A stretch of DNA of 64,000 nt from Sphingobacteriales bacterium (GTDB taxonomy: Bacteria > Bacteroidota > Bacteroidia > Chitinophagales > Chitinophagaceae), in assembly GCA_027484425.1 (NCBI GenBank), contig JAIXSZ010000033.1, positions 62,001 through 126,000 on the forward strand. The letters are read 5' to 3'. Position 1 is the stretch's first letter. The number at the start of each line of letters is the position of its first letter. The position numbers were made by a program, and so were the translations under genes. Of the stretch, positions 5,522-18,192 are shown in pieces. The notes beneath the pieces are model-generated. The model did no database searches and had not been told where the DNA came from. It was given only the letters and a program-made list of their open reading frames with translations.

Positions 5522-7954
5522 ATGAATCAGCAAAAAAATGATAATAGGAGGCTACTGGGTGGTGTCTTTATACTCATTTTGTCTTTTGTATTGGTTTATG
5601 TACTTGATAAACCTATTGGTGAGTTGCCGGCTATCGGACGGCTATTAGATCCTGTTAGCGGTTGCTGGGCAAATGCCGAACCAATGCAGCATAAGCCTAA
5701 TAAGCAATTGAGTTTGACAATAACTGCAACTAATGCAACTATTTGGTGGGATGACAGAATGGTGCCACATATTCATGCTAAGAATGATTATGATGTATAC
5801 TATATACAGGGGTACATACACGCCATGCATAGGTTATGGCAAATGGACATGCAAACAAGGGCTGCAGCCGGCAGGGTAAGCGAAGTAGTAGGTCAGTCGG
5901 CATTTGATTTTGACAGGAAGCAACGTAGAAAAGGGATGGTTTATGCTGCTGAAAATTCATTGCATACTGCACTGCTAAATGGACAAACAAAAACAATGAT
6001 TGATGCTTACACAGCTGGTGTAAATGCATGGATAGGAAATCTTTCTTATTCTGGGTACCCGCTGGAGTACAAACTAATGGGTTTCTCACCAGAACCTTGG
6101 ACGAATTTGAAATGCATATTGTTGTTGAAATACATGGCTGATGATCTTACAGGCAAAACTGATGATATTGCATATTCCTACCTTAGGTCAGTAATACCGG
6201 CAGAAGACTTTGAACTGTTGTACCCAGATAAGATACCTGATGCAACTCCTGTCATACCTACTGAAACAAAGTACCCTCTCGCTTCTCTCAAGCAGCCTGT
6301 TACTCCTCCCGATAGTGTTGTATTTCCAGAATATAAATCTACCGATTTTGGTGAATTACGTGAAGACGGTAAAGGCAGCAACAATTGGGCAATTAGTGGT
6401 AGCAGAACAGCAAGTGGAGCAGCCTTATTGTGCAATGACCCTCACTTGGCTCTTAACTTGCCTTCATTGTGGTATGAGGTACAGTTGCAAACCCCAGATA
6501 TGAATGTTTATGGTACCTCACTACCAGGTGCGCCGGGTGTAGTCATTGGGTTCAATGATAGTATATCATGGGGGCTCACCAATAATTACAGAGATGTAAA
6601 AGACTACTACCAGATAAAAACCGTAGAAGACGATAAAACTAAATACTGGTTTTCAGGCGAAAAAAAGTCTTTTGGAAGTAGGGTAGAGGTTATCAAAACA
6701 AAAGGAAAGCCTACTTTTTTTGATACTGTAAGGTATACAATACATGGACCGGTAATTTATGACGAGAATTTTAATGAAAAAGGTTCACTCCGTGGATTGT
6801 TAGCTATGTGCTGGACCGGCCATCGAGGCAGTAATGAGCAATTGGCTGTGTACAAACTAAACAGAGCCAAAAATTATGAAGAATTTGTAAATGGGATTTT
6901 GCATTTTGAATGTCCAGGTCAGAATATGATATATGCCGATAGGCAAGGAAATATTGCTTTGTGGGGACAAGGGCAGTTTGTAAATAAGTGGAAGGAACAA
7001 GGGCGATTTATTATGAATGGGTGGGATAGTGCAGCACTATGGCAGGAAATGATACCTATGCGGGAGAATCCACATGCATTTAATCCCAAGCAGGGCTATC
7101 TGGCATCGGCTAATCAGTTAGTTACAGATAGCACGTACCCGTATTGGTACAATGGTAATTATACTGAGCTTAGGGCATGGCGTATCAACCAAGTGCTGGA
7201 TACCTTGCATAGTGCAACAATAGACAAAATGTTTGCTTTGCAAAATGATGAATATTCAGTTCTTGCGTCAAAAACATTGCCATTGATGCTTTCTTATTGC
7301 GCTAACATTAGTCATCCGTATTTAGATACTTTAAGAAGTTGGAATTTTATTCTTGGCAAGCATAGCGTTGCCGCTACTATATATCAGTTGTGGTGGCGCA
7401 ATCTTTATTCTGACATATGGAAAGATGAATTTTCTAGGGTTCCAGATTACACTATTCCGCTGCAAGAGCGAACAATGCAACTGATATTGAGTGACACTGC
7501 GCTTAAATATTATGACAATCGCCGTACTGCAAAGGTGGAAGTATTGAGGGATATGGTATTGCGCAGCTATCAAGAAACTTTAGATAGCCTTTTTAAGCAA
7601 CAAAAAACTATCGGTTTGGAGTGGTACAAAGCCAAAAGTACCTCTGTTACTCACCTTACGAAGCTTGCACCTTTCAGTTACAAAGATTTGGCTACAGGTG
7701 GCTGGGGTAATACAGTCAATGCTATGAAACCTAATCATGGTCCGTCTTGGCGCATGGTGGTGCAGATGGGCAAAGAAATAGAGGCATATGGAGTTTATCC
7801 AGGAGGTCAGTCGGGAAATCCGGGTAGTCCGAATTATGTAACTAATTTACAGCATTGGATAGACGGTAGATATTACCGGCTATTGTTTTTGCCCAATACA
7901 CCGACTCAGTTAAGTATGCAAATAGCACACACACAAACAGTGAGTAAGAAATAA
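5522..7954 (+). CDS. Penicillin acylase family protein (Ntn-hydrolase)
   Basis: An 810-residue protein with an N-terminal hydrophobic segment (residues 11-28) for export. The precursor is organised as alpha chain, spacer and beta chain. The GSNNWAISG motif marks the self-cleavage site, with S286 expected to be the new N-terminal nucleophile of the beta chain. It is followed by NDPHLALNLPSLWYEVQL, as in known family members. The family hydrolyses amide bonds (beta-lactam side chains, acyl-homoserine lactones, other N-acyl compounds); the natural substrate here cannot be read from sequence. Length matches the family. A small membrane protein follows 21 bases downstream. Confidence 0.9.
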   Translation: MNQQKNDNRRLLGGVFILILSFVLVYVLDKPIGELPAIGRLLDPVSGCWANAEPMQHKPNKQLSLTITATNATIWWDDRMVPHIHAKNDYDVYYIQGYIHAMHRLWQMDMQTRAAAGRVSEVVGQSAFDFDRKQRRKGMVYAAENSLHTALLNGQTKTMIDAYTAGVNAWIGNLSYSGYPLEYKLMGFSPEPWTNLKCILLLKYMADDLTGKTDDIAYSYLRSVIPAEDFELLYPDKIPDATPVIPTETKYPLASLKQPVTPPDSVVFPEYKSTDFGELREDGKGSNNWAISGSRTASGAALLCNDPHLALNLPSLWYEVQLQTPDMNVYGTSLPGAPGVVIGFNDSISWGLTNNYRDVKDYYQIKTVEDDKTKYWFSGEKKSFGSRVEVIKTKGKPTFFDTVRYTIHGPVIYDENFNEKGSLRGLLAMCWTGHRGSNEQLAVYKLNRAKNYEEFVNGILHFECPGQNMIYADRQGNIALWGQGQFVNKWKEQGRFIMNGWDSAALWQEMIPMRENPHAFNPKQGYLASANQLVTDSTYPYWYNGNYTELRAWRINQVLDTLHSATIDKMFALQNDEYSVLASKTLPLMLSYCANISHPYLDTLRSWNFILGKHSVAATIYQLWWRNLYSDIWKDEFSRVPDYTIPLQERTMQLILSDTALKYYDNRRTAKVEVLRDMVLRSYQETLDSLFKQQKTIGLEWYKAKSTSVTHLTKLAPFSYKDLATGGWGNTVNAMKPNHGPSWRMVVQMGKEIEAYGVYPGGQSGNPGSPNYVTNLQHWIDGRYYRLLFLPNTPTQLSMQIAHTQTVSKK

Positions 7955-7975
7955 CATCTGCCACTACAAATAAGT

Positions 7976-8323
7976 ATGATTATGAAATTCTTTTTATCAG
8001 TAATTGCTACGTCGTTGGTCAGTTATTTGCTAGGGCTAATATTGCCGTGGTGGGCACCAGCAGTGGCTGCTTTTGTTGTTGCCTTAATTTTGCCCACAAA
8101 AGCTGGTTTCTCTTTTCTTTCTGGTTTTGTAGGGGTAGGCCTTTACTGGTTGGTATATGCTCTTATGGTAGATATGCGCAATGAGCATATATTATCAGGC
8201 AGAATGGCTGCACTATTTGGGTTGCCAAGTACCACTCTATTTATTGCAGTAACGGCAATCGTGGGGGCAATGATAGGCGGTTTCTCCGCATGGGGGGCAG
8301 CGCTCTTGAGGCCTGCAAGATGA
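7976..8323 (+). CDS. Small hypothetical membrane protein
   Basis: The 115-residue protein consists almost entirely of four hydrophobic segments (about 4-24, 26-42, 45-64 and 82-108) joined by short loops, and it ends with a basic residue. No named family is recognised and no catalytic residues stand out. It starts 21 bases after the penicillin-acylase gene and is probably its operon partner. ATG at 7976 is followed closely by a second in-frame ATG (7982), so the exact start is uncertain by two codons. Confidence 0.6.
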   Translation: MIMKFFLSVIATSLVSYLLGLILPWWAPAVAAFVVALILPTKAGFSFLSGFVGVGLYWLVYALMVDMRNEHILSGRMAALFGLPSTTLFIAVTAIVGAMIGGFSAWGAALLRPAR

Positions 8324-8351
8324 ATTATACAATCTAAATCTCAAAATAGCA

Positions 8352-8359
8352 TACTTTTG
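8352..8359 (+). promoter_or_regulatory. -7 promoter box of the putative structured RNA
   Basis: TACTTTTG matches the Bacteroidota -7 consensus TAnnTTTG exactly. It lies about 60 bases before a two-hairpin RNA element ending in a terminator. No clear -33 TTTG box was seen at the expected spacing. Confidence 0.45.
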
Positions 8360-8365
8360 TGCTGG

Positions 8366-8456
8366 TGCCAAACCTCGGAGCTGCAAAGAGTAAGCAATTA
8401 CTGGTCTTGCAGTTACAACACAGCCTTTGCGAGAGCAAAGGCTGTGTCATTTTTTC
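8366..8456 (+). ncRNA. Putative ~90-nt structured RNA or metF leader attenuator
   Basis: Between the -7 box at 8352-8359 and the U-run at 8449-8455 the sequence folds into two helical elements. The first is an outer stem CTGCAA (8381-8386) with TTGCAG (8407-8412), enclosing AGTAA/TTACT (8389-8393 with 8398-8402) closed by a GCAA tetraloop. The second is the 13-bp terminator hairpin capped by GAGA. Both loops are GNRA tetraloops. It encodes no protein and lies 80 bases before metF. It could be a free small RNA or a transcription-attenuation leader. It does not match the SAM-I, SAM-II or SAH riboswitch cores as I know them. Confidence 0.4.
8418..8456 (+). terminator. Strong rho-independent terminator upstream of metF
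   Basis: A 13-bp perfect stem (8418-8430 with 8435-8447) with a GAGA tetraloop is followed by CATTTTTTC. It ends either the upstream membrane-protein transcript or the short structured RNA. Confidence 0.85.
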
Positions 8457-8512
8457 TTTAGTTCATTTGTACAATACTTTTTGGTCATCTTCCTAATTCC
8501 GCTATTTAGTTA

Positions 8513-8520
8513 TATTTTTG
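8513..8520 (+). promoter_or_regulatory. Possible -7 box of metF
   Basis: TATTTTTG fits TAnnTTTG and lies 15 bases before the metF ATG, downstream of the terminator. It suggests metF has its own promoter, which would argue against the upstream hairpins being an obligate metF leader. The -33 box is not convincing. Confidence 0.35.
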
Positions 8521-8535
8521 TAACAGATTAGATAT

Positions 8536-9489
8536 ATGAAAGTTACAGAGCTACTGGCTGAAGCCAAAGATACAATAATATCATTTGAAGTATTGCCTCC
8601 TACAAAAGGAAAAAGTATAGAGTCGTTATATGCTCATCTTAATCCATTGATGGAGTTTAATCCGGCTTTTATAAACGTTACTTACCACCGCGCAGAACAG
8701 GTATTCAAAAAAAGAGTAGATGGTACTTTTGAACGTGTTGAGATCCGCAAGCGACCAGGTACTGTGGGTATTTGTGCTGCTTTGATGAATAAGTATAAGG
8801 TAGAGGCAATACCACATCTTATTTGTGGGGGGTTCAGTAAGGAAGAAACTGAAAATGCACTAATAGACCTTGACTTTTTGGGAATTAAAAACGTACTAGC
8901 ACTTAGAGGCGATGCCGCCGCTAACGAGAAATTCTTCAATCCACATCCTAATGGTCATAGATATGCTGAAGACCTTGTGAGGCAAATTGTAACCCTCAAC
9001 AATGGAAAGTATATGGAAGATGACATTATAGATGGTGCCAAGACTGACTTTTGTATAGGTATCGCTGGTTATCCGGAAAAACATTTCGAATCGCCTAATA
9101 TGGACACAGAGATATACTATCTCAAACGCAAATTGGATCTTGGTGCGCACTATGTTACCACACAATTGTTTTACAGAAACGATCACTACTACAATTATGT
9201 AAATCGTTGCTTGGAAAACGGTGTTACTGCACCAGTGATTCCTGGTCTCAAGCCGCTTACCAATCAAAAACAGCTAACTACTATACCCCGAGTGTTTAAC
9301 GTAGAGCTTCCAGTAGAACTCTGCAATGAAATGATGAAGGCAAAAACAGAAGCTGCTTGTGAGCAAGTAGGTACAGAATGGTTATTGCATCAATGTAGGG
9401 ATTTGTTAAAAAATAAGGTGCCTGTTCTACATTTTTATACTTTGGGTAAGCCTATGGTGATTTATAATGTTTTGAAACAGTTGTTCTAA
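8536..9489 (+). CDS. metF: 5,10-methylenetetrahydrofolate reductase
   Basis: The 317-residue protein has the single-domain TIM-barrel of MetF. It starts with the conserved SFEVLPPTKG segment carrying the active-site glutamate (FEVLPP). ALRGD (about residue 120) is the flavin-binding LRGD motif. FCIGIAGYPEKH and TQLFY are also family motifs. It reduces CH2-THF to CH3-THF with FAD and NADH for methionine synthesis. Length is slightly above the bacterial norm (about 290-300) because of an insertion near VTLNNGKYMEDDI. The EVE-domain gene follows after 16 bases, probably in the same transcript. Confidence 0.95.
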   Translation: MKVTELLAEAKDTIISFEVLPPTKGKSIESLYAHLNPLMEFNPAFINVTYHRAEQVFKKRVDGTFERVEIRKRPGTVGICAALMNKYKVEAIPHLICGGFSKEETENALIDLDFLGIKNVLALRGDAAANEKFFNPHPNGHRYAEDLVRQIVTLNNGKYMEDDIIDGAKTDFCIGIAGYPEKHFESPNMDTEIYYLKRKLDLGAHYVTTQLFYRNDHYYNYVNRCLENGVTAPVIPGLKPLTNQKQLTTIPRVFNVELPVELCNEMMKAKTEAACEQVGTEWLLHQCRDLLKNKVPVLHFYTLGKPMVIYNVLKQLF

Positions 9490-9505
9490 TAATTATAATG
9501 TCAAT

Positions 9506-9916
9506 ATGAATTATTGGTTAGTGAAGTCTGAGCCATTTAAGTACAGTTGGGACCAATTCGTAAAAGATAAACTTACATTTTGGGACGGCGTACGTAATTA
9601 TGCTGCCCGCAATAACCTCAGAGCTATGTCAAAAGGTGACAGCGTTTTGTTTTACCATAGCAATGAAGGCTTGTCAATCGTAGGTATTGCTGAAGTTGTG
9701 AAAGAAGCATATCAAGACCCTACCACAGCGGATACAAACTGGGTAGTAGTGGATCTTAAGCCTGTTAAAGCGATCCCATCACCAGTTTCTCTTGCAGCTA
9801 TCAAGGCAGAATCTTCACTTGCAAACATGCAGCTCGTAAAGCTCAGTCGACTATCTGTGGCGGCTGTAACAGAACAAGAATATAATATTATTTTGAAGAT
9901 GGGTGGGTTGTTGTAA
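9506..9916 (+). CDS. EVE domain-containing protein
   Basis: The 136-residue protein is a stand-alone EVE domain. It begins with MNYWLVKSEPFKYSWDQF and has FWDGVRNYAARNNLRAM and GDSVLFYHSNEG, which form the PUA-like fold used to read modified bases in nucleic acid (thymocyte nuclear protein 1 family). Its ligand here is unknown. It is spaced 16 bases after metF, a common loose association with housekeeping genes. No restriction gene is adjacent, so a defence role is not supported by the immediate context. Confidence 0.9.
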   Translation: MNYWLVKSEPFKYSWDQFVKDKLTFWDGVRNYAARNNLRAMSKGDSVLFYHSNEGLSIVGIAEVVKEAYQDPTTADTNWVVVDLKPVKAIPSPVSLAAIKAESSLANMQLVKLSRLSVAAVTEQEYNIILKMGGLL

Positions 9917-10041
9917 TTTGTTAATTAATACTTCGAAATAATATGATTAATAGTATGTTTAATTATTTGTTACACATTTGCTGGTCGTGTTTCGTATAAG
10001 ATTCTTTTCTGCTAGCATCATTAGACATATTTTGCCATTCC

Positions 10042-10812
10042 ATGCTGTTTTCTTTGCGTTCATACAAGTTGATTATATTCCTTCTGTGGCTGATAGGTGC
10101 TTGCTCTCCAGTTGCTGCACAACATAGACGTGGTAAAAAAGTACAATCAAATAAAGAACCAAAATTTATAGAAGATATTTATCTTGATGGTCATGTATTA
10201 ACAAAAGCCACAGTAAATGCAATAGATTCGCGCAAGAAAAATGTTAAGAGTATTCAAAATAAGGTATTAGACACGAATATTACACCCTCCCAAGTTGTTA
10301 TTGCGCCAGTCAGTAAAGACACTATCAACGCAATAGATACCAAAATAAATACTGTTATTGACCTTTCCTCTGGTACATTATTGTACGATAAATATGCTAA
10401 AATTTTAGGTGTTTCGTCTGGTGAATTGTCTAATTTCAACCTTTACAAGTTCGTAGACAAATGGTATGGTACTAATTATCGTTTGGGTGGGTTCAGTGAA
10501 CAAGGTGTTGATTGTTCTGGTTTCACCAAATTACTTTATCAAGAAGTTTATGGTATTGAATTGACAAGAACCTCAGTAGAACAACATAAAAATGCTAACA
10601 GAGAAAAGTCTCATAATAATGCAAAAGAGGGGGATTTGGTTTTTTTCAGGCAGCGCAGCAAAAGAATTAATCATGTAGGCGTTTACTTAGGAAATTCATT
10701 CTTTATACATGCTTCAACATCGCATGGTGTTATGATTAGTAGCCTAACGGAAACTCATTGGAGTAAATCTTTTGCAGGAATTGGCAAAATTGGCAATAAA
10801 TCAGGAGAGTAA
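10042..10812 (+). CDS. NlpC/P60 family cysteine peptidase (cell-wall hydrolase)
   Basis: A 256-residue secreted protein with a signal peptide (residues 1-27, ending in VAAQ) and a low-complexity spacer to about residue 125. The C-terminal NlpC/P60 domain has the nucleophile C158 in VDCSGF, then GDLVFFRQ, the histidine in NHVGVYLG, and a third polar residue in FIHAS. These enzymes cut peptide stems of peptidoglycan, typically between D-Glu and DAP. Its last 12 bases overlap the 3' end of the convergent receiver gene. The preceding 125 bases contain no gene. Confidence 0.92.
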   Translation: MLFSLRSYKLIIFLLWLIGACSPVAAQHRRGKKVQSNKEPKFIEDIYLDGHVLTKATVNAIDSRKKNVKSIQNKVLDTNITPSQVVIAPVSKDTINAIDTKINTVIDLSSGTLLYDKYAKILGVSSGELSNFNLYKFVDKWYGTNYRLGGFSEQGVDCSGFTKLLYQEVYGIELTRTSVEQHKNANREKSHNNAKEGDLVFFRQRSKRINHVGVYLGNSFFIHASTSHGVMISSLTETHWSKSFAGIGKIGNKSGE

Positions 10813-11265
10813 TTTCTGACGTAACAAAAACTCTAGTTGATCATTAGATAAACTTAGTTTATTTGTTATTTCTCTTTCTGTCATTTTTTGTTTGTAAACA
10901 TCATATGCCCTTGTTATAGTTATGTCTAATTCATCTTCATTCCAAGGTTTAGACAGGTAATGAAAAATCTTACCTTTATTTACGGCATCTATCACTGCAC
11001 TCATGTCGGCATATCCTGTAAGGAGAATTCTTATTGGGTCGGGAAACTCATTTAGAATGGACTCTAGAAATTCCACGCCAGTCATCTGAGGCATTCTTTG
11101 GTCTGTAATAATCAAGTTTACTGTGTTATTTCTTAAAATTTTTATTGCTTCTTCACCACTAATAGCAGTAAGTATATTATATTTAATCCGGAAAACAGCT
11201 TTAAATGAAATGAGATTATTCATTTCATCATCAACATACAATATTGATATTTTGTCTTTATTCAT
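10801..11265 (-). CDS. Stand-alone response regulator receiver protein
   Basis: A 154-residue CheY-like receiver with acidic pocket D12/D13, phospho-acceptor D55 (ITDQRMPQ), T83 (LLTGYAD) and K106 (LSKPW), plus a helical C-terminal tail of about 35 residues but no output domain. The DQRMP / LTGY / KPW signature is that of HupR/RpfG-type receivers. It is strongly similar to the receiver part of the hybrid protein at 16704-17810 (for example NNL..FKA.FR and VIDAVN.G.IF.Y). It is transcribed divergently from the Rv1355c-like gene with 91 bases between the starts, so it probably belongs to the same signalling island. Confidence 0.88.
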   Translation of the reverse strand: MNKDKISILYVDDEMNNLISFKAVFRIKYNILTAISGEEAIKILRNNTVNLIITDQRMPQMTGVEFLESILNEFPDPIRILLTGYADMSAVIDAVNKGKIFHYLSKPWNEDELDITITRAYDVYKQKMTEREITNKLSLSNDQLEFLLRQKLLS

Positions 11266-11356
11266 TATGTATGGTTAAAATGGGGTTTTCGGCTATGATA
11301 TATGATATCAAAAGCTGTTACTGTAAAATTAGCAAACTTATTCGTTTAAAAATAAA

Positions 11357-13687
11357 ATGTTCGGTGTGTTAACAAAAATTATTCAAAAAAAAATTTCATA
11401 CAACACTGATACTCAAGGACTACATCGGCCTGTATTTTTCCGTATTTACGACAGTATCGACAATGAAAATCTTACCAAACTGCTAGCGGAAAAAGATGAT
11501 ATTGTTGTATATGATACTATTCAGTCGCAACTGAAGGAGTTAATCAAGACAAAGTTTCCAAAACAAACCCTTACCTCAGAGCAATACGAAGAAAAAATAT
11601 TGGAGCATCTTAATGGTCAGGCAATAGATGAATATGGCGTATGGGTTTATTATCCTTGGAGTAGTAAATTAGTACACATTTTAGATGAAAAAGAATTTAT
11701 AGATTTACGTACTTCCGCAAACCGAAACAAAATTACTACTGCCGAAAGAGATTTGTTGGCTACAAAAAAGGTAGGAGTAATTGGATTATCTGTTGGTCAA
11801 TCAGTATCTCTTACCTTAGCGTTAGAACGTGGTTGTGGTGAGTTGAGAATTGCTGATTTTGACACTTTGGAGTTAAATAATCTAAACCGAATCCGCACTG
11901 GCTTGCACAATTTAGGTCTGCTGAAAGCATATGCAGTAGCCAGAGAAATTGCCGAGATAGATCCTTTTTTTAAGGTTGTATGTTATACTGAAGGCATAAC
12001 CGAAGAAAATATTCATGATTTTTTTACTGTTGGCGGCTTACTTGATATGGTTATCGATGAGTGCGATGGTGTAAATATTAAGATTCTTTGCCGTTTGAAA
12101 GCACGTGAACTTAATGTTCCTGTTTTAATGGAAGCTAGTGATAGGGGTACAGTAGATGTTGAAAGATTTGATCTTGAGCCTGATCGTAAAATCATGCATG
12201 GATGGTTAGAGCACTTACCTATAGATTTCAAAGTACTGAATAATCTAAAAACCAGCGAAGAAAAACTCCCATACATTTTGCCGATTTCAGGTCTCGAAAC
12301 ACTTTCGCCAAGGATGAAAGCATCAATGGTCGAAATACAACAAACTATCACCACATGGCCTCAGCTAGCAACAGCAGTCACGCTTGGTGGAGCAGTCACG
12401 GCTGATGCTTGCAGGCGTATTTTTCTTAATCAGTTTACTGATTCAGGCAGATATTTTATAGATTTAGAAAAGTTAATGCCAGATACACGTCCGAAGGATA
12501 AAAGTCCTGCTTTATTTACCTCATCAGAGCATGAATTATCAACTGAGGAATTGCGAAATATAGTATCGGAGTGCACAATTTTGTTCTCATCACAAAGCAA
12601 TCCACCCAATTTCAATGTTGTTCAAGACTTAGTAAAAGCAGCAATAAAAGCTCCTTCTGCTGGAAACAATCAACCCTGGAACTGGCATTATGAGAATAAT
12701 TTGCTCTTCTTGTTACATGATAGAGTTAGGTCTGTTTCATTTGGCGACTTTCAGCATATTGCCTCTTATGTTGCATTAGGAGCAGCTATCGAAAATTTGG
12801 ATTTAGCTGCATACCACCACAACATTCCTATTTCTGTTCACTATTTTCCCATTACAGATACTCGATGTGCTGCGGTAATTCAATTTGCTACACACCAAAA
12901 AGGCTTTAATTTGTTTGAGCCTACAAAACTATTTGCAGCTATTGATTCCAGAATTACAAATCGGAATTTAGGTCAAAGAAAACCTCTCTCCAATTCGCAG
13001 TCAGATTTACTAACTCAAGCCGTAGCTTCAGTTGATGGTGCAGCTCTTCACCTTAGGCATAATTCTACTGATTTAGAAGAATTAAAAGAAATAATGAGCG
13101 CTGCAGAGCGTTTAAGAATGTTGCATATTGAAGGACATTACGAATTTTATGAAAAAGAAATCAGATGGAATGATGAGCATAGCAGAACAACTGGTGATGG
13201 TATTGATATTGCTACAGTTGATATTTCCCCATCAGATAAGGTTGGGCTAAGGTTAGTTAAAGATCCTGAAGTAGTGAAACTATTAGCAGATTGGCGTGGA
13301 GGTAAAGCTTTAGAAAAAATAGCTATAAAAGCTATTGATAGCGCTTCTGCAATAGGGCTTATCACCATGCCAAAGTTCACATCAACAGATTATTTAATTG
13401 GCGGTAGGGCAGTGGAAAGGTTGTGGTTGACAACTGCGGACATTGATGTTTCGATGCAGCCAATGCTAGCCGCTACTTTACATTTTGCCAGGATAAAATA
13501 TGGTAATGGAGAGGGATTGCCTCATTTTATGAAAGAGGAGTTTTCTCAATTACACCAAAGATTCCTCAAAATTTTTCCTGAGGCTGAAACTAGGGCAGAA
13601 GTATTCTTATTCAGACTAAGTATAGCAGATTTACCGACAGTGAAATCTTACAGGTATCCAATAGAAAAAGTTTTTAAACAATCTTGA
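11357..13687 (+). CDS. ThiF/E1-like + nitroreductase-like fusion (Rv1355c/MoeY family)
   Basis: A 776-residue two-domain protein. Residues about 130-360 form a ThiF/E1-type Rossmann domain (VGVIGLSVGQSVS nucleotide loop, then RIADFDTLELNNLNRIR). Residues about 415-760 form a nitroreductase-like flavin fold (KAAIKAPSAGNNQPWNW). This order matches the Rv1355c family (MoeY in mycobacteria), whose reaction is not established to my knowledge. ThiF domains adenylate carboxylates and nitroreductase folds oxidise or reduce small molecules, so a small-molecule biosynthetic role is inferred. The acyltransferase-like gene follows after 13 bases, and receivers and kinases surround the pair. Confidence 0.85.
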   Translation: MFGVLTKIIQKKISYNTDTQGLHRPVFFRIYDSIDNENLTKLLAEKDDIVVYDTIQSQLKELIKTKFPKQTLTSEQYEEKILEHLNGQAIDEYGVWVYYPWSSKLVHILDEKEFIDLRTSANRNKITTAERDLLATKKVGVIGLSVGQSVSLTLALERGCGELRIADFDTLELNNLNRIRTGLHNLGLLKAYAVAREIAEIDPFFKVVCYTEGITEENIHDFFTVGGLLDMVIDECDGVNIKILCRLKARELNVPVLMEASDRGTVDVERFDLEPDRKIMHGWLEHLPIDFKVLNNLKTSEEKLPYILPISGLETLSPRMKASMVEIQQTITTWPQLATAVTLGGAVTADACRRIFLNQFTDSGRYFIDLEKLMPDTRPKDKSPALFTSSEHELSTEELRNIVSECTILFSSQSNPPNFNVVQDLVKAAIKAPSAGNNQPWNWHYENNLLFLLHDRVRSVSFGDFQHIASYVALGAAIENLDLAAYHHNIPISVHYFPITDTRCAAVIQFATHQKGFNLFEPTKLFAAIDSRITNRNLGQRKPLSNSQSDLLTQAVASVDGAALHLRHNSTDLEELKEIMSAAERLRMLHIEGHYEFYEKEIRWNDEHSRTTGDGIDIATVDISPSDKVGLRLVKDPEVVKLLADWRGGKALEKIAIKAIDSASAIGLITMPKFTSTDYLIGGRAVERLWLTTADIDVSMQPMLAATLHFARIKYGNGEGLPHFMKEEFSQLHQRFLKIFPEAETRAEVFLFRLSIADLPTVKSYRYPIEKVFKQS

Positions 13688-13700
13688 ATACTTAATTAAT

Positions 13701-14393
13701 ATGATTAGGATAAGAGCATTTAGAGCTATTGATGATGTGGATGCCTGCAATTTGTATGCTCTTGAACATATGGAGATACTGAAGATTTTTGGAATCACTA
13801 AAATAACTACCGCCAATAATAGCTGGATAAACAACCCCAATGTATATGTAATACTTGCTGAAAGAATTTCTGACAACTATCCAGTAGGTGGTGCAAGAAT
13901 TCATCTTTATCATCCAAGCTATCCATTACCAATGGATGATGCAATAAAAGAATTCGACCCTAATGTAAAGACTATACTTGCTCATCATGCAGCCAATGGA
14001 GGTACTGGTGAAATATGTGGACTTTGGAATGCAAGGTCTGTAGCAGGATGGGGTATAGGCACTTTATTTCTTGCCCGCGCGGGTGTAGCTATGTGCACCC
14101 AGTTGCCAATGAATTCTATGTTTGTATTATGTGGCGGTCATACCATTGGGATTACACTAGAAAAGGGATTTACAATTGATGAAAGACTAGGAAATAAAGG
14201 AACCTTCTATTATCCCAAAGAAGGGCTTGTTGCTACAGCAGGAGTTATGAATGATATATATGACCTCAAATATGCAAAAGAAGAAGAGAAAAGTATTATC
14301 GAAAGCTTGAGAACAAATCTTGAGCAGACTAGAACGGAGTCTACAGAGAAAATAACATTTGAAATTGAATATCGTTTGAATCTTAATTTATAG
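13701..14393 (+). CDS. GNAT-like acyltransferase (N-acyl amino acid / autoinducer synthase-like)
   Basis: A 230-residue protein that resembles the GNAT/FeeM-type fold. The central segment GEICGLWNARSVAGWGIG and the following helix-strand unit (ARAGVAMC..., FVLCGGHTIGI) look like the acyl-CoA/ACP-binding core, and the first 60 residues contain FRAIDDVDAC and a strand pair. The C terminus (from about 195) is a charged helix. Substrates are unknown. It sits 13 bases after the Rv1355c-like gene, so the two almost certainly share a transcript. Assignment to the acyltransferase superfamily is by fold impression, not by a catalytic motif. Confidence 0.6.
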   Translation: MIRIRAFRAIDDVDACNLYALEHMEILKIFGITKITTANNSWINNPNVYVILAERISDNYPVGGARIHLYHPSYPLPMDDAIKEFDPNVKTILAHHAANGGTGEICGLWNARSVAGWGIGTLFLARAGVAMCTQLPMNSMFVLCGGHTIGITLEKGFTIDERLGNKGTFYYPKEGLVATAGVMNDIYDLKYAKEEEKSIIESLRTNLEQTRTESTEKITFEIEYRLNLNL

Positions 14394-14552
14394 AACAATG
14401 ATTTGCAGCCGTATTTATTTCCTACACTTTATTAGTTTTGCATAATAACATTCCCTTTTTTTATTGTTTTTCTTATTATTTGCATTATCTTCACTTAGTT
14501 TAGTTCTGATGCTTTATTAATTTCATATCTAACCATTGTTATAGGGGATACA

Positions 14553-16697
14553 ATGACTAATTTAAAATGGATATTTATTATTGTATGTATTCTCACTTCT
14601 TTTGCTTTACATGCGAAAGAATACAAGTACAATAACCCTCAAGAACTAAATATTATTGGAAGGCAATTCGAAGTTTTAGAAGATAAGTTTGGAAAAATGA
14701 ACTTTGAAACTGTAGTAGTTTCAAATGACTTTAAATCTTCCGATGTAGATGTTCCTAATTTTGGTATTTCAAAATCTGCATTTTGGCTTAGGTGTACAAT
14801 ACAGAACCAAACACAAGAGCGCGATTTGTTTCTAAATCTACAATATCCATTAATTGATAATGTTCTATTATTTTTAGTTGATTCATCTGGTAATTATTTA
14901 GTTGATACTTCAGGTGAAATGGTGCCGGTATCCAATAGGAAATTCAATAATCACAACTTTATCTTCAAACTCAATATTCGTCCTGGTCAGCAAAAAATAG
15001 TTTATCTGCGTGTATCAAGCGAAGAGCAAATCTTGGTACCGATAGCACTCGGGGGGTATTCAGCTGTTTTCCAAGCAGCAAACAGACAAGATATTCTTAC
15101 TGCCGTTTATTTCGGTATTATTTTTGTAATGATATTCTATAACTTTTTTGTTTATTTAAGTGTTAGAGACAAAAGTTACTTAGTCTATGTAGCATATATT
15201 GTTTTCATAGGTCTTACACAGATAGCACTGCAAGGCTATAGTTACAGGTTTTTTTGGCCGTCTTCTCCCCTTTTTGCCAATCAAACAGTTATTTGGTTTC
15301 CTGCAATTACAGGTATATTGGCAATAGAGTTTTTTAAACGTTTTTTACAGATAGCATCCTATTCTAAGTATTTTATTTGGATTCTTAATGCACTAAACCT
15401 ATTCTACGGGATCAACTGTTTTCTTAGTGTTGCAGGATTTCACCAGTTAAGTCAGCAGCTTATGCAGCCTAATGCGATGTTGGCTTCATTGGTCATTCTT
15501 CTAATTTCTGTTTACGCAATTAAAAAGAAAAACAGGTCAGCTAAATTTTTCCTTTTTGCTTGGGTGGTTTTTCTAGTGGGTATTGTAATTTTTATAATGA
15601 AAGACCTAGGAAAAATTCCTTTTAACAACTTTACTAACTACATTCTTCACATCGGATCTGCAATAGAAGTTGTAGTTCTATCTTTTGCGCTTGCAGATAA
15701 AATTAATATATTCAGAAAAGAAAAAGAACAATCTCAAGCTGAAGCTTTAGCAGCATTAAGAGAAAACGAGCGAATTATAAGAGAGCAAAATGTAATGCTC
15801 GAAAAAATGGTTAATGAAAGAACATTTGAATTGAAATTATCAAATGAAGGCCTTAATAAAGCATTGATAGAACTAAAAGAGGCAGAAACCCAACTTGTTG
15901 AATCTGAAAAAATGGCTTCACTGGGTCAGCTAACCGCAGGTATAGCCCATGAAATAAACAATCCGATAAACTTTGTAACGTCTAATGTTAAGCCCCTAAA
16001 GAGAGACGTCCTGATACTAATAGACACAATTGAAGAGTTAGAGCAAATCATAAAATCAGGTATTCCGCGTGACGAAAAGCAAAAAAGAATAGATGAATAT
16101 AAGCTTGAAATAGATTATGACTACCTTAAAATAGAAATTGACCAGTTATTGACAGGTATTAGTGAGGGGGCAGGTAGAACTGCAGAAATAGTAAAGGGTT
16201 TGAGGATTTTCTCTCGACTTGATGAAGATGATATTAAAAAAGCAGACATAAACGAAGGATTAGAGTCTACGTTAATCATTACCAATAATTTACTTAACAA
16301 CTCGATAAGAATTATTAAAAATTATACTAGCCTGCCACTTATAGAATGCTATCCGGGAAAACTGAATCAGGTTTTTTTAAACATTATATCTAATGGAGTT
16401 TATGCAGTTCGCAAAAAATTTGCCGACAAAGATGGAGGTTGTATTACTATTGCAACAAAAGCCGACGAAGACTATATTTACATTTCTATAGCAGACAATG
16501 GTATAGGTATGGATGAAAACACAAAAAAAAGGCTTTACGAACCATTTTTCACTACCAAAGACGTAGGGGAGGGGACAGGCTTGGGAATGTCTATAGCATA
16601 CAATACGATCATTAAGCATAATGGTCACATAAATATTATTACAGAATTAGGAGTAGGAACAGAATTTATTATTAAATTACCATTGATTCAAAAATAG
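14553..16697 (+). CDS. 7TMR-DISM sensor histidine kinase
   Basis: A 714-residue membrane kinase. A signal peptide (1-21) is followed by an extracellular 7TMR-DISMED2-type beta domain (about 35-175), seven transmembrane helices (about 185-390), a coiled-coil (390-450), and a HisKA/HATPase module with H466 in GIAHEINNP. The N box lies around FLNIISNGVYAV, followed by DNGIGM and GTGLGMSIAYN. DISM domains bind carbohydrates or other small ligands, so this is a plausible sensor for the product of the neighbouring biosynthetic genes (inference). A possible -7 box TAGTTTTG lies at 14433-14440. The receiver-kinase hybrid follows after 6 bases. Confidence 0.92.
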   Translation: MTNLKWIFIIVCILTSFALHAKEYKYNNPQELNIIGRQFEVLEDKFGKMNFETVVVSNDFKSSDVDVPNFGISKSAFWLRCTIQNQTQERDLFLNLQYPLIDNVLLFLVDSSGNYLVDTSGEMVPVSNRKFNNHNFIFKLNIRPGQQKIVYLRVSSEEQILVPIALGGYSAVFQAANRQDILTAVYFGIIFVMIFYNFFVYLSVRDKSYLVYVAYIVFIGLTQIALQGYSYRFFWPSSPLFANQTVIWFPAITGILAIEFFKRFLQIASYSKYFIWILNALNLFYGINCFLSVAGFHQLSQQLMQPNAMLASLVILLISVYAIKKKNRSAKFFLFAWVVFLVGIVIFIMKDLGKIPFNNFTNYILHIGSAIEVVVLSFALADKINIFRKEKEQSQAEALAALRENERIIREQNVMLEKMVNERTFELKLSNEGLNKALIELKEAETQLVESEKMASLGQLTAGIAHEINNPINFVTSNVKPLKRDVLILIDTIEELEQIIKSGIPRDEKQKRIDEYKLEIDYDYLKIEIDQLLTGISEGAGRTAEIVKGLRIFSRLDEDDIKKADINEGLESTLIITNNLLNNSIRIIKNYTSLPLIECYPGKLNQVFLNIISNGVYAVRKKFADKDGGCITIATKADEDYIYISIADNGIGMDENTKKRLYEPFFTTKDVGEGTGLGMSIAYNTIIKHNGHINIITELGVGTEFIIKLPLIQK

Positions 16698-16703
16698 GAT
16701 AAA

Positions 16704-17810
16704 TTGAGTACTGGACGGAAAATACAGGTGTTGTACATTGACGATGAGCAAAACAATCTCAATGGATTTAAAGCCACTTTCAGGTTTGATTATACTATTT
16801 TTATAGCATCGGATACTGCAAAGGCAAGTGAGTACTTAAGAGATTATCCCGAAATAAGTGTAATCTTGTGCGATCAGCGTATGCCAGAAAAAACTGGTGT
16901 GCAGTTCTTTGAAGAAATACGTGTTGATTATCCTAACCCAGTTAGAATGCTTATCACTGGGTATACTGATATTGAGTCAGTAATAGATGCAGTTAATCGC
17001 GGTCATATTTTCAGATACATCAAAAAACCCTGGACTGATAGTGACATAAGATCTGCTATAGAAGAAGCCAATAAGTTTTATCTCACTAATGCTTTACTTG
17101 TTGCAAAAAACAAAGAACTCACTTCGGCTTATGCAGAGTTAGGCAAGTTTGCTTATAGTATCACCCATGATGTTCGTGGTCCACTACTTAGCATTATCGG
17201 TGCACTAGATCTTGCAAAAGGAATGGAAGACTTGACAGAACTAAGAGAGTTGCTCGGTTTAATGTCAGATGCTGTTACCAAGTTAGATGAGTACATAAAA
17301 AACACTCATGAATATTACAAACTAAAACGTGGACAACTACTTTTTTCTGAGATTGACCTAAATGTATTATTATCAGACATCGCTGCTTTGTTCAAAATAG
17401 CTGGTAGAAATAATAATATTCTATTTACTTCTAATGTTATTCAAAATAAACCATTTTACTCGGATGAAATATCGATAAAAATGATCTTGAATAATCTTCT
17501 ATCGAATGCTTTTAATTACCAACGAAAAAATGCTAAAGAAAAAACTGTTAATGTAGTAATGAAAGTAATAGAAAATGACCTTGTTATAACCGTAGAAGAT
17601 AATGGAATTGGGATACATGAGAATCACATAAATAACATATTTGATATGTTTTATAGGGCCACCTCCGAAGAAACTGGATCAGGATTAGGATTATACAATG
17701 TTAAGGATGCGCTTAACAGATTGGAAGGAACAATAGAGGTTCAATCAGAAATAGATAAGGGTACTACATTCACCGTTATAATACCAGGAAAATCACATGG
17801 CGCAGTATAA
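16704..17810 (+). CDS. Response regulator-histidine kinase hybrid (receiver N-terminal)
   Basis: A 368-residue soluble protein: an N-terminal receiver (D13/D14, phospho-acceptor D57 in CDQRMPEKTG, T85, K107/K108) joined by a helix to a HisKA domain with H155 (YSITHDVRGP) and a HATPase domain (NNLLSNAFNY, DNGIGI, GSGLGLYNV). It has no membrane segment, so it probably receives phosphate from the 7TM kinase six bases upstream and passes it to the receiver at 17797. It uses a TTG start; no in-frame ATG occurs before residue 60, inside the receiver. Its receiver is a close paralogue of the one at 10801-11265. Confidence 0.9.
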   Translation: MSTGRKIQVLYIDDEQNNLNGFKATFRFDYTIFIASDTAKASEYLRDYPEISVILCDQRMPEKTGVQFFEEIRVDYPNPVRMLITGYTDIESVIDAVNRGHIFRYIKKPWTDSDIRSAIEEANKFYLTNALLVAKNKELTSAYAELGKFAYSITHDVRGPLLSIIGALDLAKGMEDLTELRELLGLMSDAVTKLDEYIKNTHEYYKLKRGQLLFSEIDLNVLLSDIAALFKIAGRNNNILFTSNVIQNKPFYSDEISIKMILNNLLSNAFNYQRKNAKEKTVNVVMKVIENDLVITVEDNGIGIHENHINNIFDMFYRATSEETGSGLGLYNVKDALNRLEGTIEVQSEIDKGTTFTVIIPGKSHGAV

Positions 17811-18192
17811 CAAATTGAATTTTATTGTTATTGACGATAGCAAATTAGATTGTTTTATCGCTGAAAAAATAATTAAAAACACTGGTAAGTGTGAATCAGT
17901 TATGTCTTTTTTACAAGCAAAAGATGCACTACAATTCATTTCTTCGGCCACGCCAGACGACCTTACTCATACAATTATACTTGTTGATATTCAGATGCCT
18001 GTAATGAATGGTTTCGAATTTGTAGAGGCTTTCGAAAGTTTGCCTGGTAGTGTTGTGAACAACTATACGATTTATGTTATTTCCTCTTCTATTAATGAAA
18101 ATGATTTGCATAAGGTTCATAATTACAAATCTGTAAAACAATTCTTAAATAAACCACTTACCAGTAATAACCTATCCTTATTGCTTTCCTGA
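17797..18192 (+). CDS. Single-domain response regulator
   Basis: A 131-residue CheY-like receiver with D13/D14, phospho-acceptor D64 (LVDIQMPVMNG), SS in the YVISSS strand and the lysine in LNKPL. It has no output domain. Its ATG overlaps the end of the hybrid kinase by 14 bases, indicating translational coupling. It is probably the terminal phosphate acceptor of the three-protein relay. This receiver belongs to a different subfamily from the two DQRMP receivers of the island. Confidence 0.9.
   Translation: MAQYNKLNFIVIDDSKLDCFIAEKIIKNTGKCESVMSFLQAKDALQFISSATPDDLTHTIILVDIQMPVMNGFEFVEAFESLPGSVVNNYTIYVISSSINENDLHKVHNYKSVKQFLNKPLTSNNLSLLLS

Follow-up and report, generated by a model that had tools for sequence, protein, structure and literature searches.

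Why should two enzymes of a biosynthetic type stand directly beside a membrane sensor kinase and a set of receivers? The question is raised by six genes (P0001 to P0006) in a 64,000-nucleotide stretch of DNA from Sphingobacteriales bacterium (assembly GCA_027484425.1, contig JAIXSZ010000033.1, positions 62,001 to 126,000), referred to here as the window. We consider it probable that these genes form a cassette of signal synthase and receptor, an autoinducer system of the oxazolone type: this reading rests on predicted folds, on conservation of the cassette, on exchange of its enzyme module and on co-variation of its synthase and sensor. What is new is the coupling of a predicted oxazolone-type synthase to a receptor. 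A first-pass annotation of the sequence had held that the block could not be named from known pathways; for the enzymes a name does exist, namely acyl-oxazolone biosynthesis (TrzAS, TyzACB, OxzAB).

Predicted enzymes and sensor kinase

Its sequence places P0001, over its full length, in the Rv1355c (TrzS) family: the NCBIfam model NF005901 covers residues 17–774 with 792.4 bits, against a cut-off of 476. The first-pass annotation had described an Rv1355c-like fusion of ThiF and nitroreductase, of which the family and the ThiF domain (over its Pfam cut-off) are upheld; the nitroreductase part falls short in Pfam (17.9 versus 23.5 bits) and lies within the stretch that NF005901 matches. Residues R178, K190 and D237, which we take to be the ATP-handling Arg, Lys and Asp of E1 enzymes, are each fully conserved (1.00) over 100 homologues. 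The ThiF-only label applies to 30 of the 100, of which L096 with 693 residues and L027 with 858 may hold further domains. D237 is presumably the equivalent of D217 in TrzS. In a Foldseek search of the PDB, the AlphaFold2 model of P0001 (44-row alignment A2, predicted local distance difference test [pLDDT] 89.5) ranks Acg of M. smegmatis first (2ymv, E 5.4e-13), followed by AclA, TcdA and ThiF. Because of this first rank, P0001 is counted among proteins with an Acg-like flavin-dependent oxidase (FDO) domain, Acg being the closest FDO named for TrzS (PMC12856293). AclA, which outranks TcdA and ThiF, comes from another member of the Bacteroidota, Tenacibaculum discolor, and its structure (9egb) was solved with substrate.

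In the characterized pathway, TrzA acylates tryptophan and TrzS, which is Rv1355c, uses ATP for ring closure and O2 for the desaturation that follows, giving an N-acyl tryptazolone; the TrzS activity has been demonstrated biochemically in mycobacteria (PMC12856293). Oxazolones are hydrolysed by acid, according to the same paper. Related pathways are TyzACB (PMC10404671) and the N-acyl tyrosine clusters (PMC12479983).

P0002 had been called a GNAT/FeeM-like acyltransferase, an assignment that the first-pass annotation offered for refutation by profile search. The profiles do fail it: there is no Pfam match at E<=1, NCBIfam yields only a chance-level match of 13 bits, and the best hit of a PDB profile search has an E of 0.076. 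The fold sustains it: with the AlphaFold2 model (36-row alignment A1, pLDDT 92), BjaI and FeeM fill Foldseek ranks 1–8 in the PDB (BjaI 5w8g, E 1e-7; FeeM 2g0b, E 2.4e-7). BjaI and FeeM are also the structural neighbours given for TyzA (PMC10404671), and because this fold is the one reported for TyzA, P0002 would relate to P0001, by position and fold, as TrzA does to TrzS. One acyltransferase of this type was found in the window's whole genome, in this block. One related cassette, L091, contains two tandem acyltransferase genes, possibly for two acyl signals.

In P0003 the 7TMR-DISM_7TM (PF07695), DISMED2 (PF07696) and HATPase domains exceed their Pfam cut-offs, and HisKA scores 22.4 bits, under the cut-off of 26.9. 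Receptors of the 7TMR-DISM type include LadS and RetS; P0003 is the one gene with a 7TMR-DISM_7TM domain found in the window's 4.58 Mb genome.

The six genes, with the positions and spacings listed in the first-pass annotation, were confirmed to the base (Table 1): P0001 and P0002 are separated by 13 bases, P0003 and P0004 by 6 bases, and P0004 and P0005 overlap by 14 bases. The nearest relative found is the locus L003 in a metagenome-assembled genome of Flavipsychrobacter stenotrophus, with 88% identity in P0001; nearer records may exist. Towards the 3' end of the 159 bases that separate P0002 from P0003, 35 consecutive bases are the same in L003 and may mark a promoter from which the kinase genes are transcribed separately; a search of this gap for a terminator-like site found none.

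Table 1. Genes and intergenic stretches of the block (window positions)
Feature	Positions	Strand	Basis
P0006, divergent single-receiver response regulator (RR6 type), 154 residues	10801-11265	-	PF00072 72 bits
Intergenic stretch between the divergent transcription units	11266-11356	.	conserved in nearest relative L003
P0001, TrzS-like (Rv1355c family) fusion of ThiF cyclase and Acg-like flavin-dependent oxidase, 776 residues, predicted oxazolone-forming	11357-13687	+	NF005901 792 bits
P0002, N-acyl amino acid synthase-like GNAT acyltransferase (predicted), 230 residues, TrzA/OxzA position	13701-14393	+	AlphaFold2 fold, Foldseek
Gap from acyltransferase to kinase, 159 bases	14394-14552	.	35-base run shared with L003
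P0003, membrane sensor histidine kinase, DISMED2 periplasmic domain + 7TM + HisKA/HATPase, 714 residues, predicted receptor	14553-16697	+	PF07695 168 bits, PF07696 118 bits, HATPase 76 bits
P0004, soluble receiver-histidine kinase hybrid, 368 residues, TTG start, phosphorelay	16704-17810	+	PF00072, PF00512, PF02518 over cut-off
P0005, single receiver domain protein (R5 type), 131 residues	17797-18192	+	PF00072 44 bits

Conservation of the pair and exchange of its partner enzyme

Acyltransferase and seven-transmembrane (7TM) kinase occur together almost without exception. Among the 294 genomes of the window's family, two independent searches (the acyltransferase by its own profile, the kinase at E<=1e-60) found the acyltransferase in 89 and the kinase in 95, with both in 88, the acyltransferase only in 1, the kinase only in 7 and neither in 198. 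In G251, the sole acyltransferase-only genome, an acyltransferase is followed by a methyltransferase, and this in turn by a sensor of P0003 type that is truncated where the contig ends. Of the kinase-only genomes, G271 and G274 have contigs that end at this point, and in the other five (G059, G205, G282, G290, G292) the match is either weak or confined to the kinase part, and no acyltransferase is seen in the loci retrieved. In a sample of the phylum, 13 of 395 genomes have the acyltransferase, and the kinase adjoins it in all 13 (the window is one of them; three of the other 12 loci had been fetched in earlier scans).

Conservation of the enzyme pair beside kinases in other genomes, which had been put forward as a check, is borne out: the kinase is present in 31 of 37 loci from a scan of genome contigs and in 51 of 56 further loci from the window's family. 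Gene annotation of the loci relied on mechanical open reading frames and BLAST labels. In the contig scan, BLAST finds the acyltransferase in 36 of the 37 loci (all but L021; the five from Nannocystis at only about 27% identity), a label-based count being 28 because overlap filtering hid some. The 31 kinases comprise 29 by strict label and two, in L013 and L030, present as a fragment at the contig end; the six loci that lack it are the five Nannocystis loci and L021. The receivers are less constant, with R5 in 23 and RR6 in 26 of the 37 by label. In the family, the family model matches strongly in 57 of the 294 genomes, counting that of the window; the match may be whole (40 over the cut-off), ThiF-only or a fragment. 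The five of the 56 other family loci that lack the kinase (L056, L063, L079, L088, L114) lie on contigs of 3.1–6.9 kb; R5 is present in 35 of the 56 and RR6 in 45. Four control loci (L115–L118), which are weak ThiF matches of other kinds, have neither acyltransferase nor kinase partner. We take the arrangement of the cassette to be more than chance because it is found again in dozens of genomes and because the one 7TMR-DISM_7TM gene and the one such acyltransferase found in the window's genome both lie in this block.

Two departures from this layout were seen in the contig scan. The Nannocystis loci (L022–L025, L027) have two TrzS/ThiF paralogues flanking one acyltransferase, with no receptor-type kinase nearby. 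In L021 (positions 9926–14001), on a contig labelled Patescibacteria, a TrzS homologue is followed directly by a HisKA_7TM (PF16927) kinase with no recognisable acyltransferase; this locus may have recruited a second kind of receptor. A 366-residue protein of L021 and frames of 223 and 226 residues in Nannocystis were considered as acyltransferases and rejected, as none matches the acyltransferase profile.

The enzyme beside acyltransferase and kinase is exchanged among relatives: it may be a ThiF-oxidase, ThiF alone, a flavin adenine dinucleotide (FAD) oxidase, a soluble methyltransferase, an ICMT-type methyltransferase, or none. The receptor loci L119–L152 come from genomes without TrzS and have another enzyme or none in this place, except that L121, L123, L125 and L128 are, by genome or genus codes, second contigs or a second copy from genomes having TrzS or ThiF. 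A Pfam scan of nine representatives identified the FAD_binding_4 oxidase, the class I S-adenosylmethionine (SAM) methyltransferase and the ICMT/PEMT methyltransferase, and the remainder were assigned by BLAST. The soluble methyltransferases in relatives likewise stand beside an acyltransferase. Culturable carriers of the cassette include Chitinophaga rupis DSM 21039 (L031), with ThiF only, and Pedobacter insulae DSM 18684 (L011), with the ThiF-FDO form. After three duplicates were dropped, and with L096 relabelled as TrzS by hand on account of its 693-residue length, the 117 distinct receptors are labelled TrzS (55), ThiF (27), none (12), ICMT (11), methyltransferase (7), FAD oxidase (3) and orphan (2). 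On the receptor tree there are 22 label changes, against a shuffled mean of 56.3 (as low in 0 of 200 shuffles). With the four contig-edge rows (L121, L123, L128, L179) excluded from the counts there are 18 changes on the receptor tree and 21 on the acyltransferase tree, both trees being of a quick kind; changes among the five enzyme classes only number at least 12 and 15, respectively. FAD oxidases that are 52% identical were found in two separate receptor clades. We also considered a broken ICMT gene hidden between synthase and kinase of the cassettes without an enzyme, and rejected it: in 7 of the 9 with flanking sequence the gap is 139 bases or less (some genes overlap), and no ICMT-like frame was seen by eye in the two longer gaps of 203 and 647 bases.

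Six of the seven methyltransferase cassettes (L124, L126, L127, L129, L132, L134; the exception is L122) have no receiver-kinase, and in these an RR6-type receiver directly follows the sensor kinase on the same strand. Because RR6 is kept beside the kinase there, this suggests that it is the kinase's minimal partner.

The variety of tailoring enzymes bears on the first alternative, in which the enzymes still make a signal but one of another kind than an oxazolone, such as a lipid amino acid that is adenylated or cyclised, or an N-acyl product whose only further change is desaturation. We regard this as unlikely, given the full-length TrzS family match and the conserved adenylation residues of P0001. 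Speaking for it, 27 of the 117 receptor-linked cassettes have ThiF without an oxidase, and 9 with enough flanking sequence have no tailoring enzyme at all.

Co-variation of synthase and sensor

If P0003 recognizes the product of the adjoining enzymes, its sensor half should vary with them. Pairwise identities of the acyltransferase, the ThiF part, DISMED2, 7TM, the kinase part, the receiver-kinase, RR6 and R5 were compared over 103 cassettes; the four contig-edge rows and an orphan receptor, L125, were left out of the sensor comparisons. In the main partial correlations the kinase part and the receiver-kinase were held constant, with cubic terms. The identity of the 7TM part correlates with that of the acyltransferase (partial r 0.346, 4465 pairs), a value reached in 0 of 300 row permutations; the pairs are not independent, and it is the internal controls, not the permutations, that carry the argument. 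The correlation with ThiF is 0.394 (2485 pairs), and the controls give 0.009 for 7TM with R5 (1485 pairs) and 0.010 with RR6 (3403 pairs). DISMED2 behaves similarly, with partial r of 0.254 for the acyltransferase, 0.357 for ThiF, -0.06 for R5 and 0.031 for RR6. The kinase part follows the phosphorelay genes: with 7TM and acyltransferase held constant it correlates with R5 at 0.812 and with the receiver-kinase at 0.832, and with receiver-kinase and 7TM held constant its correlation with the acyltransferase is 0.031.

In 74 loci RR6 lies on the synthase side, and in these the partial correlations are 0.471 for 7TM with acyltransferase, 0.031 for RR6 with acyltransferase and 0.815 for RR6 with receiver-kinase. 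The divergence of RR6 among relatives thus follows the kinase half and not the adjoining synthase, and neighbourhood alone is therefore insufficient as an explanation; physical linkage was rejected as sole cause of the co-variation on this ground. Unequal rate was rejected as sole cause as well, as the mean identity of R5 is about the same as that of the acyltransferase (42.6 versus 43.3). The pattern is visible within a single genus code: between L104/L107 and L109/L112 the acyltransferases are 31–33% and the 7TM parts 38–42% identical, and the kinase parts are 83–87% and the receiver-kinases 83–91% identical. In an exploratory test of enzyme-class labels (two tests, 400 simulated labelings), 1.75% of simulations were as high as observed for 7TM. 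Overall, the sensor half varies with acyltransferase and ThiF, and the kinase half with the receiver genes that flank the cassette on either side. This is the pattern to be expected if a ligand is matched to its receptor, and single pairs depart from it.

A number of observations weigh against a matched synthase and receptor. Within one genus code, L119/L120 (FAD oxidase) and L082 (TrzS) have acyltransferases that are 85–87% and RR6 proteins that are 87–89% identical, and DISMED2 and 7TM parts that are only 28–31% and 51–53% identical; here it is the tailoring enzyme, not the acyltransferase, with which the sensor varies. L082 and L070 both have TrzS, with sensor identities of 28% and 43% and an acyltransferase identity of 59%; in L006 and L007, also both TrzS, the acyltransferases are 80% and the 7TM parts 43% identical, and in L066 and L069 the values are 62% and 40%. 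Rank-based partial values for 7TM fall to 0.133 with acyltransferase, 0.275 with ThiF and -0.008 with R5, a linear version leaves a link of 0.18 between receiver-kinase and acyltransferase, and in the label test 72% of the 400 simulations were as high as observed for DISMED2. All five Nannocystis loci carry the enzymes without the kinase, and genome G266, which has the full cassette, also encodes a second receptor-type kinase of 46% identity to P0003 with no adjoining synthase (L125, positions 7523–9679 in this genome of the same genus), possibly a listener. In the window itself the gap between synthase and kinase is 159 bases, compared with a median of 9 over 116 junctions, and the acyltransferase has none of the sequence-profile support that Pfam, NCBIfam or PDB profiles could give. 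Finally, the tryptazolones of mycobacteria and rhodococci are enriched in cell pellets, with the acyl-amino acid intermediate found outside (PMC12856293). The single pairs that go against the synthase-receptor cassette lowered our confidence in it by a very small step.

A second alternative is that the kinases respond to a different cue, for instance stress of the envelope or oxidative stress, and turn on production of an antibiotic or a lipid of the oxazolone type, which would then be output and not ligand. Kinases beside biosynthetic genes are common, which counts in its favour, and in other phyla oxazolones have been tied to stress, according to the discussions of PMC12856293 and PMC10404671. 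We nevertheless find it distinctly unlikely: it gives no reason for synthase and sensor to be specially tied, whereas overall the sensor half follows acyltransferase and ThiF rather than the phosphorelay genes, the receptor keeps its acyltransferase even where the tailoring enzyme is changed or absent, and Pfam and NCBIfam showed no DNA-binding regulator among the genes of the cassette. Feedback or self-protection, in which the kinase would respond to the product so as to keep self-toxicity in check or to adapt the envelope, without any role between cells, could draw on the same pellet enrichment and on the description of related N-acyl tyrosine derivatives of Stieleria as antimicrobial (PMC12856293), but is highly improbable, as no constant transporter or resistance gene appears as a length pattern beside the cassettes (most flanking genes being unannotated) and the comparison of L104/L107 with L109/L112, in which synthase and sensor have diverged and the kinase half is conserved, fits signalling better.

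Proposed working and comparison with known systems

As a signalling cassette, the block might work as follows. P0002 would join an acyl group from coenzyme A (CoA) or acyl carrier protein (ACP) to an amino acid, as its fold and position suggest. By analogy with the TrzS family, the ThiF domain of P0001 would activate the carboxylate with ATP and close the oxazolone (azlactone) ring, which the flavin oxidase domain would then desaturate. The product or a near relative would be bound by the DISMED2-7TM part of P0003, as the comparative data favour, and phosphate would travel, judging from domain architecture, by way of the receiver-kinase and the lone receivers until it reaches a regulator. This output regulator is placed elsewhere in the genome because Pfam and NCBIfam scans found no DNA-binding domain in any of the six block proteins. 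The proposal in the first-pass annotation, of a diffusible acylated product detected by the 7TM kinase, fares unevenly: putative detection is favoured by the co-variation of sensor and synthase, and 'diffusible' is doubtful because tryptazolones are enriched in cell pellets.

We lean slightly towards the wider view that the block is one member of a large unnamed autoinducer family of Bacteroidota, composed of a FeeM/LuxI-fold acyltransferase producing N-acyl amino acids, a plug-in head-group enzyme and a dedicated 7TM-DISM kinase that co-diversify like pherotypes. Within this same joint view the head group would be finished by ThiF or ThiF-oxidase (oxazolone), by an FAD enzyme (oxidation), or by a soluble or ICMT-type methyltransferase (methylation). 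If so, Bacteroidota would gain a signalling family based on the LuxI fold (synthase in 89 of 294 genomes of the family and 13 of 395 of the phylum sample), with chemical dialects set by one exchanged enzyme, and bacterial acyl-oxazolones would have a first receptor and role. To the TrzAS authors, what oxazolones do physiologically is a major unresolved question; pointing to their structural likeness to cell-cell signals and to c-di-GMP genes nearby, they suggest that a role in signalling is possible (PMC12856293). With a likely oxazolone maker and a likely receptor side by side and changed together, the question of role becomes a direct experiment.

The words 'kinase' and 'two-component' are absent from the main text of PMC12856293 (TrzAS), PMC10404671 (TyzACB) and PMC12479983. 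Searches of open-licence PMC papers, in part by titles and the beginnings of abstracts, showed no report linking oxazolone/ThiF enzymes to a histidine kinase and none of 7TMR-DISM in Bacteroidetes quorum sensing.

Parts of the block nonetheless resemble several known systems. TrzAS (Rv1356c-Rv1355c; mycobacteria, Rhodococcus) has a ThiF-FDO fusion of the same NCBIfam family with an adjoining acyltransferase gene, which lies upstream there (PMC12856293) and downstream in the window. TyzACB and OxzAB (tyrazolones, phenazolones) likewise combine an acyltransferase (TyzA with the FeeM/BjaI fold), a ThiF cyclase and a nitroreductase-fold oxidase; TyzB and TyzC are separate proteins and OxzB is a fusion, OxzAB being known here through the related papers. 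With LuxI/FeeM-type acyl transferases P0002 shares its predicted fold, with no sequence-profile match and no S-adenosylmethionine lactone chemistry implied. P0003 shares DISMED2 and 7TM domains, both over cut-off, with 7TMR-DISM receptors, and differs in that its type is tied almost one-to-one to a biosynthetic gene.

In its proposed working the block resembles Phc quorum sensing, the synthase position being held by an enzyme of LuxI/FeeM fold together with a head-group enzyme that can be exchanged. A receiver-kinase search of plasmids for Phc-like operons returned 1696 records, all below 60% identity, of which 12 were inspected, and was uninformative. In Phc the methyltransferase PhcB makes the signal, a hydroxy-fatty acid methyl ester, in contrast to TrzS and acyltransferase in the window, and the likeness lies in gene order. 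That order is the same in phcBSRQ of Ralstonia pseudosolanacearum: synthase, membrane sensor kinase, receiver plus histidine kinase, and a lone receiver without a DNA-binding site, with the output regulator PhcA, a LysR regulator, likewise not listed in the operon in the available part of PMC8578825.

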